Shown here: positions 16,568 through 41,603 of the stretch, piece by piece | Layout of the letters: every line of letters starts with the position of its first letter | Position numbering within the stretch: the stretch's first letter is position 1 | From: Strigamia acuminata | Taxonomy: Eukaryota > Arthropoda > Chilopoda > Geophilomorpha > Linotaeniidae | DNA: 64,000 nt | NCBI GenBank assembly: GCA_949358305.1 | Contig: OX442321.1 | Coordinates: 8,085,605 to 8,149,604, forward strand | Reading direction: 5' to 3' | The notes under the pieces: generated by a model | Databases searched by the model: none | Told to the model about the DNA's origin: nothing | The model's input: only the letters and a program-made list of their open reading frames with translations | Program-made: the position numbers and the translations under genes

Positions 16568-16645
16568 AGGAAGTGGAAGGACGTACATAACTACTCGAAA
16601 ACGAAGCAAACGGTCACAATCGCAATCCACTTAACCTCAACAAGA

Positions 16646-17221
16646 ATGGAGAAATACATCATCATCTTGTTTTTAGTTTCTCTCGTGGCAAACACCGTCC
16701 AAAGTACCGGTTGTACTGGCTGTCCAGGGAGTCTAACGGACGAAGACCTCCGTTCGGAGAAACTCATCAATTTTGCCAAGGCAGGATTGGAAAAAATCTA
16801 CCAGAAAAAATTAGCGGAGAATTCCTTGCCTAGTTGCGTCGATCTTAAAGGAGAGCTTCGCTCGGGTACCAAACAGGTGCGAGAGACGAATGAAGCAACA
16901 TATTTATTTGTTGATATTTCATTACATTGCGATTATCACAGGTGGTGGCCGGTTTCAAATACGTTTTACAAGTAGAAGTTAAACCAATTAAAAGCACAAA
17001 AGCAGACTGCGCCGCTTCTAATGTCGACCCAAATTCCGTACCAGTAAGACAAAAAAAAATTGTAAATTTTTAATTAGATTTTCAACTTTTTTTTGATTTT
17101 GTTTCAGATCGAAACTTGTGAAATTACAGTTTGGCAAAAACCGTATACAAACATTCCCGAAAACGAGCGAACGGAAATTACATTCGTCTGTCCAGCACCT
17201 GTAAAACCCGCTTTAGAGTAA
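16646..17221 (+). CDS. Secreted cystatin (cysteine protease inhibitor), 148 residues, three exons
   Basis: Exons are 16646-16876, 16942-17043 and 17108-17221, all phase 0 with GT-AG introns of 64-65 bp. Residues 1-20 (MEKYIIILFLVSLVANTVQS) form a signal peptide. The mature N-terminus reads GCTGCPG and supplies the Gly that contacts the protease. The family motif QxVxG reads QVVAG and spans the first intron (Q77 ends exon 1). The second binding hairpin reads VWQKPY. Four or more Cys in the C-terminal half fit a type-2 cystatin with disulfides, and the length is normal for one domain. It would inhibit papain-like cathepsins outside the cell or in lysosomes. The gene sits in a block missing from the other duplication copy. 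Confidence 0.88.
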
Positions 17222-17668: not shown

Positions 17669-20015
17669 TCATTTACTCATAATCTTTACAGAATGAATAA
17701 CTTTGTGTTTGTTTAGATCGGACACGGTATAAAAACTATCCATGCACAGATTACACGTGTAGGGCCGAATTCCGAAATGAGTATTGAAATGATTCTTCAA
17801 ACCTTCGTCGGACAAGAACTTTCGACTACAAATTTCGCACTTGTAATGTCCCTGCCGTTTGTTTGTTTTCGACGTCATTTTGGCGATTTTTTTCGCAACT
17901 TCGCACCGTTGTCGATGTTTAACCAACGCCGAAATGCACTCGAATCGAACGCCACAGTCTCTGCAATATTTACCCTTACAATTGCGCTCTAGTTTCCGTC
18001 TCGTGGGACTCGTCTGATCGGCAGATGAAGTGGGATTGGCCACTTCCACGCGCTTTTCCTAATTTAATAACAAAAACCGATTAGTTTATTTGTTGTTTTA
18101 AAAATAAAAATGAATATATCTGGATTAAAAATCAACTATTCCAAGCACCAAATGCAATAAATAAATATCTCTCTTTTTTATTAATTTACATTTAAAAAGA
18201 AAATAATTTTTTTTTTTTAATTTATCTATTTTTTTAAAAAAGAAAATAATTCAAATTTACAAATGTGATAAATGCATTAAAATGAGACTCTAACAAAGAC
18301 ACTTTAACCTCTCGTAAATTCTTCATTCACCTTTTCAGCTATTAAAGTTTGACTTTGCGTAAACTTTATTTTAAAATCCTGGATCCATTTGGCAACTGTC
18401 TCTTCGTTCGGTAACTCGTTCATTGTATCTGAGTTGTTTGGCGACCAATCATCATCATCCGCAACAGTCTAAAAAATACAAAAATAAATTAAATGTTTTA
18501 AAAATTCGTAAAGATTAAAATAAATTGCTTACCTCTTCCCTCTCGACACACCAGTCGTTATTGTCTAATGGAATTTGAGTGATGGCAGTTTTTGGTTTAT
18601 TAGGACGTTTGAAGTCTCCATTTTGTTCGAATGGTTCAGAATCATTCAAGTCCATCGTGTGATCAGAATCGTTTTCGTTTTGTTCCCGTTTCATGGCCAA
18701 AGCGTAACTATCTAGCGTGTAATTATGGTCTGCGCTAACTTGTCGATTCAATATATTGTAACGTTCTGTAAATAAAAGTTTTAAAAAAATATATTAATAT
18801 TTTGATACAAAATGAAAATCCAACTCAACAAACCTTCGAAATCTGTGATGCAATACACTTTAAACGGAGGATTCGCCATAAAATTATGGAACTCCCGCAC
18901 TTCTCGTATATTTGGCAATTTATGAAGTGACGTACGAATGCAGGTCTTCCATAACACAAAGTCCTCTTTGTCGCTGTACCGGCCTTTCAACACAGCCCAC
19001 TCCTAATTTAATATTTAAAAAAGAATAAAGATAAATAAATTGCAAACAATTTTTTAAACAAATAAATACTTTAAATAATTGCGAATCTTCAGGACGCCAT
19101 CTATTGGTGCCTTGACGAGGCCAAGGTAATCTAAATAAACCACGAGCCCGATTTTCCCATTCTAAACCTCGAAATCTTCCCGATTCTAACCCTCGAATAA
19201 GAAATGGAACTAATTTCGCTTCCCGCCGTCTCGGTCTTGGAACGGTTATCTAAAAATTAAATTTATTTTTTTTAAATTAGAAAATTCCAAATAAAATATT
19301 TAAAATGACATTACTTTTTCCTTATTTGCTAATTCCGACGTAATTTCCGACCAAACAACTTGCGCAGTTCGAATTTTCTCGTAAAAATCATGGAAAGATT
19401 TCAAAACGGAAACACACTCTCGACACAAGCGAATACACTTCGCCATCTTTGCAATATCCTAAAAAAAAAAAAAATTAAAGCAAAAAAAAATTAGAAGTAA
19501 AAAATAAAAACCGTTAGAAATCGTTAGGAAATATTAGAAAAACGAATAGAATATTTAAAAAATGCGAAATTAGTCTCGTTAAATTACGTAATGATGATCA
19601 GGGAGTAGCGAAACATTCACTGGCTATCGCGTGGCGTCTCGGATTCGATTTCACATTCAGTATTAAAACCACCTCAAAACTTTAACTTTTAAACAGTAAT
19701 CCCATGTCCGCTACATTTACACTCGCAGAAGGGAGGTTTCGGCGAATAAAACGAGTTAGGAACTCGATTGAAAGCGAAACAGTTCGCTAAATTGAAACAA
19801 AGTGCATGTCTTGCACTAGGCTACATATAAACACAAAATAGGCTTAAAATTGAAATATTAGCGTTACTCACTTCAAGTTCCAGATATGTTTGCATTCGTG
19901 TTGGAAGAATTTTCGTAACATTGTCTTCGCCTTCCACGCACATTGCATGCTCGTCCAATTTGGCGCACAAGCGACATGTTTTACCCGACATCGTAAATGC
20001 TTCTTCCGCCAGCAT
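17669..20015 (-). CDS. ZAD-IRF-C2H2 fusion transcription factor, 465 residues, seven exons
   Basis: Exons: 20015-19872, 19458-19315, 19249-19070, 19002-18834, 18765-18533, 18468-18331, 18058-17669; every junction keeps frame. Exons 1-2 (residues 1-96) encode a ZAD: CRLC near residue 14 and a distal LCREC followed by VLKSFHDFYEKI. Exons 3-4 (97-213) encode an IRF DNA-binding domain: LVPFLIRGLESGRFRGLEW, FRLPWP, NRWRPEDSQLF, EWAVLKGRY, LWKTCIRTSLHKLPNIREV and FKVYCI, with four of the five signature Trp (127, 139, 147, 158; the first is Phe112). A Glu/Asp-rich linker follows. Exon 7 has three zinc fingers (CRDC, CEIC, CNLC), the first ending HRQRC (C2HC). There is no IAD domain. It is likely a nuclear DNA-binding protein that dimerises through the ZAD. 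Two neighbouring genes read as one is the main alternative, but there is no internal stop, start or poly(A) signal. Confidence 0.85.
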
Positions 20016-20411
20016 TACACTTCAGAAGAAAGACCAAAACTTTGGGGCTTGTGATTGGTTAGTTTCAAATCACGTGGATCAAGTATCGGTTACGATTTCA
20101 TTTTCGCCATTTGAGTGTTCCGGATTGGTCGGTTAGAAACCTACGTCATAAGATTTGAATTTGAGTAGAATTTTTCCCAAGTTTTCCCAATGAGATCATA
20201 TTTGTTTTAAAAAGAAGAAAAAAATGTATATTTTAATGTCCGAATAATACTTTAACAAAAAAAAAATTATTTTAGAAAATATTTCTCATTATTTTATTTC
20301 CTACTACACCGATAAAAAGTTATATCCAAAAAAATTAAATAAAAATGAAAACAAGAAAGTTATAAAATTATGTTTGTTAAAAAAGGCTTATTTTTGGCAA
20401 TTACAAAAAAA

Positions 20412-23400
20412 TCACGATTCTGTGCTGAAACTGACATCCGCCTCATACGGCAGAGTCCAATTTGCCGAGCTACCTCGCTTGCAGTATCTAGGACAAGCCT
20501 TGTTAAATATATCTTCCAATTCGGGCGGATCAATAGTCGAGAAAAACGATTCAAAGTTGACATCTTTCATTTGGCGCATAACAGCAATTTTAACTCTCTG
20601 GTCTAAAATTTAAAAATAAAAATCAACAAAAAATTACAACTAAAATCAACAAAATCAAACCCACGTTGAGCCCATTTCGGTATGTGTTTTCGTGGATTGC
20701 ACTCATCGTCAGTGGAATCTTCAGAATTCAGATCGTCAATATCATAATTGTCCGGATCTTTCAGCTCGATTGGTTGTTTGACCACTTCCGGAGTCATATC
20801 GTAACTGAATTTAAAAAAAAAATAATTACAACAATTAAAACAAATACTTCAATTTTCTGTATTTATTTACCTATCGGGGTTGGGAGGTTTCAGTTGAGTG
20901 AAAGTCGAGTTCAGCACAGATTTGACCAAAACATTTTCTTTTTTAGCCTGAAAATGAGAAAAATGAATTAATTTCGCTCATTTCGATGCGACAAAATTCC
21001 TCAAACCTCTGCAGCTTGTTGGACTTTTTCGCGAGCCAGCTTTTCCCGTTCCCTCAAACGTTCCATTTCTGCTTTCTCCCGCGCGAGTCTCTCTCGTTCG
21101 CGTTGTTTTTCACTGCAGAAAAACTAATTAAATAAAAACAAACAACAAACGAGCAATTATTTTACATTTCTGCCGCTTGACGCTGCAATTCCTTCAGTCT
21201 CTGAAGCTCGAGTTCCTTTCTCTTCCTTTCCTCCTCCTCCTCCAATCGCTGTTTTTCTAACTCGACGCGACGATTCTCCTCCAACTCCTTCATTTCTTGT
21301 TTCGCCAATTGGATTTTTCTCTGCTCCGCTAATCGCTCCTGCTGCTTCAACAATTCCATTTCCTTTTTCTTCTTAGATTGTTCCAGATACCGAATCTGTT
21401 CCTCCTCCTAAAAAAAAAAAAATATATATATATTTTTAAATAAAAAACAAAATTTTTTATAAAAAAAACCTTCTCCTGAAGCTTGATTTTTCGTATTTCT
21501 TCTTCTTTCGAACGCCTTTCCTCAGCTTTAAACGCTTTTTCCTGCAACCTAGTGCAAGCTTTACTCGGCGTCAAGCGACTCCTCTCTCTCGGCTTATCTT
21601 TCGCCGCAATTTTAACCAAATGCTCCAATTTTCGCTCCTCCTCTTGTCTATTGCGTTTGTCCAACACTTCTTGCATTTTTAAGGCCCGCATTCTAAAAAC
21701 AACAACACCAACGATAAAATAAAGCATTCAATTAAATCCACACAAATCCATCCCACCGTTTAATTTCTTCGGCTTTTCGTTTCTGTCGTTCGAATCGCGA
21801 CTTCAACGTCAGCCGACATTTCTCTTCCTTTTTCTCCAACGCTTCTTGCTTCTGACGAATCATTTTCTAAAATCAAAACAAAAATAAAACAAACTCAAAT
21901 CCGACAATTAACCAAACAAATACCGCTTCGAGAACTTTCGGCGACACATAACGCCCAGACGCATTCATCTTGGGCCGCGAAACACTCACGGGAGTCCCAA
22001 CAAATCGCTTGCTCGCGGACGACGGAACAACCTACACAAAAAACCCGAATTAACACAATTAAACGCACAAATAAACACAAATTACTTGTCTAGAGCCTGA
22101 ATATTCGCTAGTTTGACTCCCCGAACGAACTTTCTGCGTCGAACGAGCGTTGGACGTGCATTTCAAGTTCCTCTGTACAACAAATTGGAATAAAATCTAT
22201 CAACGCCACAATCAATAACCAAAGCAAACCTTCTTTCTCGGAGGAGTAGGCGTTTTAGGTATAACATCATCCTCATCCTCGCTTCCAGTATCTTGATAAC
22301 TCGATTCGTCCTTGTCCGTTTGCATCTCCTCCATCGGTGCTGCCACTTCATCCCTGTCACTCTCTGGCCCCACTTCGCAATTATCCTCTTCCTTCTCAAC
22401 TAAACGAGCAGCCTCGCTGTGTAATTTGGCCACACGGACAGAAGAGCGGTGTGACGACGGTCGTCCGTGTCCATTTTTCAAGTGTGCATTCAACACGCTC
22501 TTTCTCATCCCACTGACCCGACGTTTCCCCAAGCTAGGACTGCGTCGGATCGTCTTCGTGGGTCCTGAAAACTCGGGTTTATGTTCGATGGGTGTACAAA
22601 GCACGTACGGACTCGCGGTCAATTTTCTATCGACCAATTTGATCGGCGACAGAGTGGAAACGAACATTTTATCCATCGATGCGCGTTGTTCGCGCTCGGG
22701 AGTCGCGTTTTTCAAGGGCGAAATGATTTTTTCTTCATATTCTTTCACTTTTTTCAGGACTTCGAATTTTGGTTGAACGGTGGTGCTTTGTTTGGTGGAT
22801 TTCTTGAGCTTGGTTACCGTTTGCGGTGCAAATACTTCATCGGGAGACGCATCAGCTTGATGAGCGGCTTGTATTCGTGTGTAGCGACGTGTTCGTCGCA
22901 CAGGTGCATCGGGTTCCTCCATTTCGGGTATAGGAGCCTCATTTTTGATGGTTTTAACAGTAGTCAATCGTTTCTTGCTTTCTTCTTCATCGTCTTCGCT
23001 AAAAAATGAACAAAATCGAAGTGATTTCCAATTAAAATCGTTAATTTACGGTGAAATTACGTATTCGGTTTATTCTTCTTGTTCTCTTTGTTTCCCTGCA
23101 ATAATCCCGTTCGTCTTTTCGACGTGCGGACAGTTGACGGTGTTTTCGGGTAAGTAATCGGTTTTCCACTGCAGGGATTTAAAATAGAAATGAGATAAAT
23201 TAGAATGGAAAATAGAATATTTCTTAAGACCTTGTAAAAAGCTTCACTGCGTTAATATACGCGGTGTCAATGAAGTCGTATGTTTGTTCGAACTCGTGGT
23301 TTAATGCCTCAAGGTGTTTCGCTTCTTCCGCGCGAAGTTTTTTGAATAAATCTATCTAAAAATGCAAACAAAACGTCAGGTACGTTTGATAAATTACAAA

Positions 23401-38087: not shown

Positions 38088-41000
38088 ATGGAATCCACCA
38101 GTGAGTATCTCTCTCTGTTTACTATTTTCTCCTTCAATTTGCCTTTGTCATTTTAGATCCAACGGTCAAGCAAGTACAAAGTAAAACCCTTTTCTCTTCC
38201 GTACCAATTTTAACTCGTGACATTCTTCTTTTATAGTAAAAAAAAAAAATGTTTTTGCAAACTGCGACTTTTATAGCTTTTACACAGCCAATGAGAAATT
38301 TCTAAATTTTCTGTAAAATAAGTAATTTGCTTTAGACACGTATAAGGACGTGTTTAAAGAAAGCTAGAATGAAAATGTTGGCAGCCAGCCACAGCTAGAA
38401 ATAGACACACTTGGCATTCCCTAAGTTAAGGGTATAATAACTTTCTTCCTGTTTAAGAAAATCACAAATTTAAATTACACTTTTTGATTGGACCCAATTT
38501 TTCTCATGGAAATATCAAATAGAATTGGAAATAATCAAAAACACAACAAAAAAAGAAATAACGTAGAAAAACAAGTTTCCAAGGTAAAATCAGTTACATC
38601 ATTGAAGAAGAATGATAATGATTGTGTAATATAAAAATAACACATTTTATAGTTTTTTTTTCAGTTTCTTATTTCATAAATGAATTAATAAAACATTTTT
38701 TCTGACACATTTACCAGTTTATTATCTTTTTTTATACTATTTCTCTAGATTAAGACAATGCAACTTAAAAGATAAAATGTTAATCAGATGAAATGACTCA
38801 TTTTTCTCTTATGTTGTTAATGAATTTAATTTTTTAATTTTCTTTTTCAGTTCACAGTGAAGCTTGGGTCACTTTGGCCACAAATGACTCCTACGCTTTA
38901 GGTGCTTTGGTACTTGCCCATTCACTCAGAAGAGTTCACACAAATAGACATTTGACAGTTCTCATCACCCCAGATGTCTCACAAGGAATGAGGTATTTGG
39001 TTAAAATTATCTAGTTAATTTTACTGCAAGTAAAAATAGTAACAGAGGTGTTAAAAAGGCAATTAGATGAGTATGTCTTCAAGAGTTTGCATTTTGAACG
39101 GTGAATCAACAGAAAAAGCATATTGTTTACATCTACAGATGTAATCGGATGTTCATGACCCATATTTCCACAATGAAATTGAGGAAATCAATTATCCATT
39201 ACAAATTCTTTCCAAAATTAAACACACATATGACCTCATCTGTTGTTTTCTAACCCTGGGGTGGGCCACATGCTACTTTTCAAAACGACCGAAAAGCTTT
39301 TAATAGAGTTTGCGGAAGGGTCCTTGTGTCAAGTTATAACCGTGGTATAAATTCATAAGGAAGTTTATAAATTTGTGTGTTTGCGGGGTTGGCAGATATC
39401 AATAAATTAGAAGTAGTCAGTGTGTTGACGTTGCTTAAAATAAACGAATATTTACTTCTGTTGCTTGTGACAAACAAAATGTCCGCTTCCGATACCGGTA
39501 TCTAAATTTAGCCGCGAACCGAGCAGATAGACACGCGTCTAAAACTGAACTTTAAACGTTTATTTTAGAGTTTAATATTTGTGATTTATTGAGTTCGGAA
39601 AGAAAAATAAATTATTTGTATTTTAGGGAACATTTAGCGCAGGTTTTTAACTCGATAAATGAAGTGAACGTTCTAGACAGTAATGATGAGGCTCATTTGG
39701 CATTGATGCAACGACCCGAACTCGGAGTTACTTTCACGAAATTGCACTGTTGGAGGATGACCCAGTTCACGAAATGTGTATTTCTGGATGCTGACACATT
39801 GGTGAGGATTTTGACAATTTTTTTCTCGTATATAAAATTTTTTTTTCTATAAATTAATCTGTAATTTTAGATCGTTCAAAATTGTGACGAGTTATTCGAG
39901 CGCGAAGAATTATCTGCAGCTGCAGATATCGGATGGCCGGATTGTTTTAACTCTGGAGTATTTGTTTACAAACCTTCGAAAGAAACGTTCATATCACTCG
40001 TGGAATTCGCGGCCCAAAAGGGGAGTTTTGATGGTTAGAAAATACAAAAAAAAAAATTAAACTAAAATTAAAATTAATTTTGGACTAATTTGAATTTTAG
40101 GTGGAGACCAAGGTCTTCTGAATTTATATTTCAGTGACTGGGCGACTAAGGATATAGCTAAACACTTGCCTTTTATTTACAACATGACTTCCAGTGCTGC
40201 GTATAGTTATTCGCCCGCATATCAAGCGTGAGTTGAATAAAAAACGTCGGTAATAAATCGTTGATTTGATTATTCACTTCAGGTTTGGTAAAAATGTGAA
40301 AATCGTTCATTTCCTCGGCGCAATTAAACCCTGGATGCAAGGTTACGACGCAACAACTGGCCAAGTGCACCAGCGCGAAGGTTCTTGTCATTCGCAAGAA
40401 CACTTACAGTATTGGTGGGACTTATTTATTCGAGAAGTGCAACCGAGATTACAACCAGATTACGTAAGTACACACATCTTCTAATCCCACTCTTTGACAT
40501 CAATAAAAATCTAAACATTTAAACGCTCACAAGGATAAAATTAAAATGCTGGTGAGTTTAGTTAGAAATTTACAAATTGCAATCACTTTTTATTACTACA
40601 CAATCAAATAATTTGCATCTATTAAATCCACCCCTTGTAGGCGGGTCTAGCCGGTCAACTAGCGATGATGTCTGTTGGCATCCAAGCACCATCGGCGGCT
40701 GAAGTGGCCGAAGACGAGCGCGCTCATCAGTTGGCCTGGGAGTGCGGAAAAGTAGACTACATGGGCCGAGACTCCTTCGAGAATATTCAAAAGAAATTGG
40801 AAGAATCGTTGGGCGACAACGGACAAGCCAAATCCCTAACAGAAACGGCGAAACCCGAAGAACCGGCGCAACAACAGCCAGTAGCCCAGCAAGCGGAAAC
40901 GCCAAAAGCGGAAGCTCCTTTGCCCGTGCAACCACTTGGTCCGCCACCAACAGAAATGGAACCTGCAAAAGCAGACCCTCCTTTGCCACAACAGCCAGCA

Positions 41001-41603
41001 GATCCACCAAAAGCGGAAGCTGCTTTACCGCTCCAGGAAGTCCCTCCACCGAAAGCGGAAGCTCCTTTACCGCCGCAGGAAGTCGCTCCACCAAAACCGG
41101 AAGCTCCTTTGCCGCCACAGCCAGCAGATCCACCAAAAGCAGAAGCTCCTTTACCCGCTGAGCCAGTCGCTACACCAAAAGCGGAAGCTCCTTTGCCGCC
41201 ACAGCCAGTAGATCCACCAAAAGCGGAAGCTCCCTTACCGGCGGAGCCAGTAGCCCCACCAAAAGCGCAAGCTCCTTTGCCGCCACAGCCAGCAGCTCCA
41301 CCAAAAGCGGAAGCTCCTTTACCTGCTGAACCAGTCGCTCCACCAAAAGCGGAAGCTCCTTTGCCCCCCCAGCCAGTCGCTCCACCAAAAGCGGAAGCTC
41401 CTTTGCCCCCACAGCCAGTAGCTCCACCAAAAGCGGCAGCTCCTTTGCCGCCACAGCCAGTCGAACAGGCGAAAGCGGAAGGTCCACCGCAGGCAACTCC
41501 ACCGCCACGTCCGCCACCACCGGCGAAGGGTAAAGGTGCGCAAGGGCAGCAAGCGCCACAGAAGCCGCCGCCACCTAAAGGTGGCAGGAAGAAGTCTAGC
41601 TAA
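38088..41603 (+). CDS. GYG: Glycogenin, self-glucosylating primer of glycogen synthesis, 601 residues
   Basis: Exons: 38088-38100, 38157-38180, 38851-38992, 39627-39801, 39871-40033, 40101-40227, 40283-40463, an 18-bp microexon at 40534-40551 (DKIKML), and 40641-41603. The GT8 domain covers residues about 14-280: [45 protein letters not shown] (the DxD metal site), [20 protein letters not shown] and HFLGAIKPW. Next is the arthropod-type AGLAGQLA segment and VDYMGRDSF. The tail (about 370-560) is built of [12 protein letters not shown]-type repeats and ends Lys-rich. Human glycogenin primes on a Tyr after the GT8 core; candidates here lie in DYMGRD or upstream. Exon 1 supplies only four codons plus one base. 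The enzyme acts in the cytosol with glycogen synthase. Confidence 0.93.
40920..41470 (+). repeat. Coding tandem repeat, 36-bp period, in the glycogenin tail
   Basis: About 14-15 copies of a 12-residue unit ([12 protein letters not shown] with variants PLPAEP, PLPLQE, KPEAP). The copies differ at synonymous and some non-synonymous sites, so it is older than the 29-bp satellite. The minus-strand open frames over it are shadows caused by the periodicity. Confidence 0.9.

Follow-up and report, generated by a model that had tools for sequence, protein, structure and literature searches.

A predicted centipede gene encoding a ZAD, an IRF-type DNA-binding domain, and zinc fingers in one frame

The ZAD, IRF, and zinc-finger modules described here normally occur in different proteins, and a locus of the centipede Strigamia acuminata at which all three appear in succession raises the question of whether they are encoded by one gene or by several and, if by one, what kind of protein is specified. 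The window analysed, i.e. the whole 64-kb stretch of DNA, is very probably located on chromosome 8 (contig C10, 10,363,448 bases) of an assembly reported to comprise 237.5 Mb in 158 scaffolds. Its chromosomes include three with lengths of 37.79, 19.35, and 10.36 Mb, and its mitochondrial genome has 15.07 kb (PMC10556566). By eye, the gene order of the mitochondrial contig (15,068 bases) looks unlike that of typical insects.

Exon structure and domain content

Seven exons on the minus strand (Table 1), predicted from the genomic DNA, join into one frame of 465 amino acids with no internal stop. The sequence-only reading of this locus had proposed such a continuous frame, encoding a ZAD, then an IRF domain, and then three fingers, and splice sites, frame, and Pfam matches bear it out. 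All six introns are of the GT-AG type, with phases 0, 0, 0, 1, 0, and 0. Introns 2–5 are 64–68 bases long (65, 68, and 64 bases for introns 2, 4, and 5, respectively), and intron 6 has 272 bases. The other two frames of the joined CDS contain 22 and 32 stops, and shuffled exons contained a mean of 30.7 and a minimum of 12 (2000 shuffles). The GC content is 38–45% in the exons, 11–19% in introns 2–6, and 33% in intron 1. Because a second protein of the same architecture, P0001 (see below), begins in the alignment at the second methionine of the window protein, translation probably starts at the second ATG, giving a protein of 457 amino acids.

Table 1. Positions of the exons, zinc fingers, and other features of the ZAD-IRF-zinc-finger gene and of further IRF loci in the genome (window coordinates unless a fetched stretch is named)
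Feature	Position	Strand	Remark
Whole coding span	17669..20015	-	Likely true start codon at 19991, by alignment with P0001
Exon 1	19872..20015	-	First half of the ZAD, with Cys14 and Cys17
Exon 2	19315..19458	-	Second half of the ZAD, with Cys60 and Cys63
Exon 3	19070..19249	-	N-terminal half of the IRF DNA-binding domain; lacks Met; immediately preceded by an in-frame TAG
Exon 4	18834..19002	-	C-terminal half of the IRF DNA-binding domain, including the recognition helix WKTCIRTSLHK
Exon 5	18533..18765	-	Acidic linker
Exon 6	18331..18468	-	Acidic linker
Exon 7	17669..18058	-	Basic stretch and three zinc fingers
Zinc finger 1, C2HC	17903-17965	-	Strict pattern
Zinc finger 2, C2H2	17777-17839	-	Strict pattern
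Zinc finger 3, C2H2	17693-17755	-	Strict pattern
Possible promoter (two CCAAT boxes, CACGTG)	20020..20140	-	By eye, upstream of exon 1
GAAANNGAAA, IRF-site-like	19770..19779	+	Intron 1; post hoc, weak
GAAANNGAAA, second copy	20096-20105	-	Other side of exon 1; post hoc
Two small tandem IRF genes, contig C3	3241-3937 and 6458-7188 of fetched stretch L007	-	Found by profile; modelled by eye
IRF1/2-branch gene, contig C4	6040-8630 of fetched stretch L006	+	Found by profile

The IRF domain (PF00605) was placed by Pfam at residues 109–208, close to the predicted extent of about 105–210, with 80 bits against a cut-off of 27 (E 1.9e-22), so that the profile search that had been named beforehand as a possible refutation returned a significant match. 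Against the PDB, the IRF part matched IRF4 best (E 3.6e-20), and all 20 PDB sequences with an E value of 0.001 or less bear the name of an IRF (or a synonym) or of an IRF fusion. When the whole protein was scanned, the zf-AD profile matched residues 13–84 at 22.4 bits, less than the curated cut-off (28 bits); with residues 1–96 alone it reached 27.4 bits (E 4.1e-6; profile positions 1–72 of 75), 0.6 bit under the cut-off, and the same residues in reversed order, used as a control, gave no zf-AD match. In the PDB, the ZAD part was matched to Grauzone (1pzw, E 0.0035), the sole ZAD of two rows at E ≤ 5, the other row being unrelated. Its four cysteines are arranged as CxxC...CxxC and are all kept in P0001. 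The strict finger pattern, the first finger being C2HC and the other two C2H2, occurs three times in the six frames of the whole 64 kb, in every case inside exon 7, and by eye the last two fingers are connected by a TGEKP-like linker. The single-finger Pfam models stay under their cut-offs in the window protein and exceed them in P0001. Of the check with three profiles that had been suggested, the IRF part was therefore borne out above its cut-off, whereas the zf-AD and finger models matched under their curated cut-offs.

The IRF association domain (PF10401) was absent among the nine Pfam families that matched the protein at E ≤ 1, and its profile had no match in the genome at 0.001, nor did any control genome give one. 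Scans with NCBIfam (protein) and Rfam (window) each returned 0 families.

A cluster of five tryptophans is the hallmark of the IRF family. By eye, four of the five were recognized (W127, W139, W147, and W158; W147 was judged against the IRF1/IRF2 rows of the alignment), and the first position is occupied by Phe (F112), which is found in P0001 also. In the recognition helix of both proteins, the arginine equivalent to Arg98 of IRF4 is kept, Thr is present at the Cys99 position, and His is present at the Asn102 position, which matters in IRF4. In the window protein, these residues are Thr180 and His183. Given these exchanges (first Trp to Phe, Cys99 to Thr, and Asn102 to His), the binding of DNA may differ from the IRF norm or be weaker. 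The conserved Arg98 has been reported to be essential in IRF4 (PMC10630337).

A second protein with the same domain order

The protein database was searched with the full protein as the query and scored on residues 97–212, and one of the 13 candidates, P0001 (678 amino acids, E 1e-61), reached E ≤ 0.001. P0001 has one member and is encoded by a single ORF on one contig of 2,151 bases from the source 'lgn'; since the ORF fills nearly all of this contig and shows none of the six introns, the contig appears to be a transcript assembly. In P0001, Pfam identified an IRF domain (2.3e-23), four stretches of zf-C2H2, and a match to zf-AD that falls short of the cut-off (26.6 bits, 7.2e-6); the order, ZAD-IRF-fingers, is that of the window protein. 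The proposal of a single gene with three domain types is thus matched by a protein in which the same order lies within one ORF. With the ZAD of P0001 as the query, the PDB yielded three unrelated rows at E ≤ 1 and no ZAD chain, and a structure of P0001 predicted from the single sequence had a mean pLDDT of 35.8 and no usable fold.

The two proteins are identical at 88 of 100 positions of the IRF domain and at 60 of 61 positions of its core (residues 133–193, a stretch picked after seeing the alignment). Elsewhere, identity is far lower, namely 26/72 (36%) in the ZAD, 31/120 in the linker, and 46/125 (37%) in exon 7 (Fisher p 1e-12 or less for the IRF domain against these parts). These comparisons indicate that the fusion is conserved and that the IRF reader is its most constrained part. 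A second search, with the window protein and P0001 combined as a profile, gave four matches among 3836 candidates; the three beside P0001 all carry zinc fingers, and two also carry a ZAD, but none has a listed IRF domain. Because only relatives that share short exact words are found, these searches are not a census. No candidate was returned for the IRF part alone, a partial query finding only proteins of similar length, and in the viral contigs one stretch was matched and no relative was found.

The reading as separate genes was rejected on several features of the locus. Exon 3 has no Met and is directly preceded by an in-frame TAG, so that the IRF domain requires an upstream coding exon, the closest one available being exon 2, at a distance of 65 bases; introns 2–5 have the short lengths given above; and P0001 carries the same domain order in a single ORF. 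The same observations make it very improbable that the gene is an artefact, whether by the misjoining in silico of adjacent, independent ZAD, IRF, and zinc-finger genes or by an assembly error. So does the course of the domains across the exons, since the ZAD spans intron 1 and the IRF domain spans intron 3, each crossing a splice junction, and these two splices are therefore required by the domains. Judged from the window alone, intron 6 is the weakest joint, and transcription may end early there; this intron contains two AATAAA and two ATTAAA words, although such words are common in AT-rich DNA. In addition, exons 3–6 form a symmetric block with phase 0 at both ends, and exons 1, 2, and 7, when joined, read in frame as a ZAD-zinc-finger protein. 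Both features would suit a gene with isoforms, in which exons 3–6 are sometimes skipped to give an ordinary ZAD-zinc-finger protein (exons 1-2-7) beside the IRF form, or in which transcription sometimes stops within intron 6, so that the fingers are missing. Such isoforms seem unlikely to us, however, as P0001 has all of the parts in one ORF.

Other IRF and ZAD loci and a proposed origin of the fusion

With the IRF profile, four loci were found in the genome, namely that in the window, one on contig C4 (19,343,292 bases), and two in tandem on contig C3 (37,788,348 bases). The C3 genes, as modelled by eye, encode 182 and 186 amino acids, are ~60% identical to each other, and consist of the DNA-binding domain and an acidic tail. 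They resemble the window gene in the LPWPRQ motif, in the residues RT in the recognition helix, and in a phase-0 intron at the same site followed by a phase-1 intron, which lies some 20–25 residues further on, and they differ from it in their small size, in having their own ATG start, with first coding exons that begin AG/ATG, and in the absence of the finger pattern from the surrounding 9.5 kb. No finger pattern was found in 9.9 kb around the C4 gene either. The ZAD pattern that was used at the C3 and C4 loci detects single-exon ZADs only and would miss a split ZAD such as that in the window. Between the two C3 genes, the first IRF exon was noted by eye once more, on the opposite strand, as a third copy that looks broken (L007 4516-4758, + strand). 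The C4 gene has its phase-1 intron elsewhere in the DNA-binding domain, and a repeat-rich stretch is present inside that intron.

In a tree of ten rows, for which the program warned of long branches, the two C3 copies cluster with the window protein and P0001 (100/99), this clade is joined with IRF4 at weaker support (82/80), and the C4 copy groups with IRF1/2 (84/86, drawn open). The bit scores of the PDB searches agree with this grouping: the closest PDB entry was IRF4 for the one C3 gene searched of the two (E 2.1e-12) and IRF2 for the C4 gene (E 2.2e-18).

The zf-AD profile found nothing in the genome at 0.001, and at E ≤ 10 it matched exon 2 alone (E 0.245). The search scored a single candidate and had no match in any control genome, so that its result is no proof that ZADs are absent elsewhere. 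If true, it would mean that ZAD genes are rare in Str. acuminata, unlike in insects, of which the ZAD-zinc-finger proteins are reported to be the most abundant transcription-factor class (PMC7655104).

Introns 3 and 4 of the window gene have phases 0 and 1, as do, in animals from lizard to mammals, coding introns 1 and 2 of IRF-4 (PMC2885996). Exons 3 and 4 may therefore, on this comparison of phases, correspond to coding exons 1 and 2 of an IRF gene. Because IRF-like genes of other deuterostomes are reported to have almost no similarity in phase (PMC2885996), the match is weak evidence of descent. Exon 3 begins AG/ATA, where the C3 genes have AG/ATG, and this could be the trace of a lost start codon; the evidence is weak, since 9 of the 64 codons are one change away from ATG. 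The sequence-only reading had taken the exon pair 3-4 for the shuffled module and the phase-0 exon borders on the 5' side for a feature that would ease shuffling. Exon 3 is indeed entered in phase 0, but exon 4 is left in phase 1, so that this asymmetric pair could not simply be inserted into an intron, and the symmetric unit is the block of exons 3–6. The simplest history, we infer, is that a ZAD-zinc-finger gene took up, behind its ZAD exons and ahead of its finger exon, an IRF gene of the C3 type, comprising the DNA-binding domain and an acidic tail.

Relation to known classes, proposed function, and flanking sequences

Apart from Nematoda and Hexapoda, every principal animal group is reported to have IRFs (PMC4602278), and insects are described as lacking them (PMC4602278, PMC3308963). 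Drosophila is reported to have lost the RLR-MAVS-IRF axis (PMC6723221). The absence of IRFs from Drosophila, to which attention had been drawn, is beside the point, as the host is almost certainly a centipede, in which an IRF domain is to be expected and its partner domains are not. Another arthropod protein that carries an IRF DNA-binding domain is the IRF of the shrimp Litopenaeus vannamei, but it has 362 amino acids, with the domain in its amino-terminal part, and no ZAD or fingers are mentioned in the available part of its description (PMC4602278). With the IRFs of the IRF4 branch, the window protein shares the DNA-binding domain, the arginine of the recognition helix, and, with vertebrate IRF-4, coding introns of phase 0 and then 1. 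It departs from them in that the domain is internal, lying behind a ZAD and followed by fingers, instead of N-terminal, in the residues at the Cys99 and Asn102 positions, and in that no association domain was found at E ≤ 1, although the branch is defined with this domain at the C-terminus (PMC3308963). Like ZAD-zinc-finger proteins such as Drosophila Grauzone, it has an N-terminal ZAD with four cysteines, albeit slightly under the zf-AD cut-off, and a C-terminal finger array, in this case of three fingers with a C2HC finger first. In that class, however, the middle is described as a linker in which no structural motifs can be discerned (PMC7655104), whereas here it holds a complete IRF domain. 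The protein is thus a chimaera of two known kinds, IRF and ZAD-ZNF.

The earlier statement that no protein with a ZAD, an IRF domain, and fingers has been described holds for the matches listed from the open-access literature; InterPro or UniProt may list the combination. In that literature, no paper was found with all three domain terms, though zf-AD may occur in some together with one of the other two, and PF00605 and PF07776 occur together in no paper among the matches listed. The word 'interferon' is absent from the available text of two papers covering Strigamia maritima (PMC4833078, PMC4244043), as are 'interferon', 'IRF', 'zinc finger', and 'ZAD' from that of a paper on myriapod genomes (PMC9151784).

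On balance, we favour the reading that this is a real and conserved centipede transcription-factor gene which arose by IRF insertion and whose product would dimerize through the ZAD in place of the association domain and read a composite site, chiefly with the IRF domain and also with the fingers. Most likely, the protein is a DNA-binding regulator in which the ZAD supplies the dimerization of the missing association domain. ZADs of insect proteins dimerize. The ZAD of the window protein would accordingly pair two protein copies and do the work of the IRF association domain, and without the latter, the phosphorylation switch of IRF3-type factors would be dispensable. The positively charged IRF domain, which is held nearly unchanged, would be the main DNA reader, and the last two fingers would read neighbouring bases, so that the dimer would recognize a composite site, with the acidic linker recruiting the transcription machinery. 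The net charges of the IRF part (+10), the acidic linker (−14), and exon 7 (+16) would suit two DNA readers flanking an acidic recruiting segment. Human IRF4 carrying the lymphoma mutation Cys99Arg is reported to lose binding to canonical sites and to gain binding to composite sites (PMC10630337). Since the helix of the window protein is changed at the very position where human Arg99 shifts binding to composite sites, an altered, composite DNA specificity is plausible, and the near identity of the helix in the window protein and P0001 suggests that the recognition helix matters to the animal.

A further-reaching version, which we put forward tentatively, is that a myriapod factor of the IRF4 branch swapped its association domain for a ZAD, dimerizes without a phosphorylation switch, and reads a composite site of its own through the altered helix and the fingers, and so belongs to neither the IRF nor the ZAD-ZNF class. 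Conversely, the fusion might be real and the protein still an ordinary ZAD-zinc-finger chromatin protein, whose role is determined by the ZAD and the fingers and to which the IRF domain was added as a DNA-contact module without an immune role. The N-terminal ZAD and C-terminal fingers are placed as in ZAD-ZNF proteins, for some of which heterochromatin functions have been reported in Drosophila (PMC7655104), and no immune link was found in this analysis. The strongly conserved part, however, is the IRF domain rather than the ZAD or the fingers, and we consider a chromatin protein of this kind doubtful. As a ZAD-dimerized regulator, the protein would unite modules from different proteins in a conserved form, allow a direct test of whether one module for dimerization can stand in for another in a factor of the immune type, and illustrate how regulators have been rebuilt in arthropods. 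Binding to new composite sites would also make it relevant to the lymphoma mutation Cys99Arg of human IRF4, by which binding is changed at the same position of the helix (PMC10630337).

The stretch upstream of exon 1 contains a possible promoter (Table 1), in which two CCAAT boxes and a CACGTG motif were recognized by eye. The IRF-site-like pattern GAAANNGAAA occurs 19 times in the window against 12.8 expected, a number reached by 7 of 100 shuffles, and the occurrence of two copies within 662 bases, one on either side of exon 1, has a p value of 0.008–0.017 but was selected after sight. The longer pattern GAAANNGAAAC is at the chance level (3 against 2.3 expected). An IRF might control its own gene through two such GAAANNGAAA sites, but they were rejected as proof of self-regulation, the enrichment being weak and post hoc. 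The end of the upstream neighbour gene (window 20412-20609, minus strand) has some resemblance to the IN-box of INCENP. On the other side, a small secreted-looking protein is encoded on the plus strand (window 16644-17221) and has a weak match to cystatin (E 0.058). An ORF at window 40641-41603 (plus strand) contains many repeats of a 16-residue unit.
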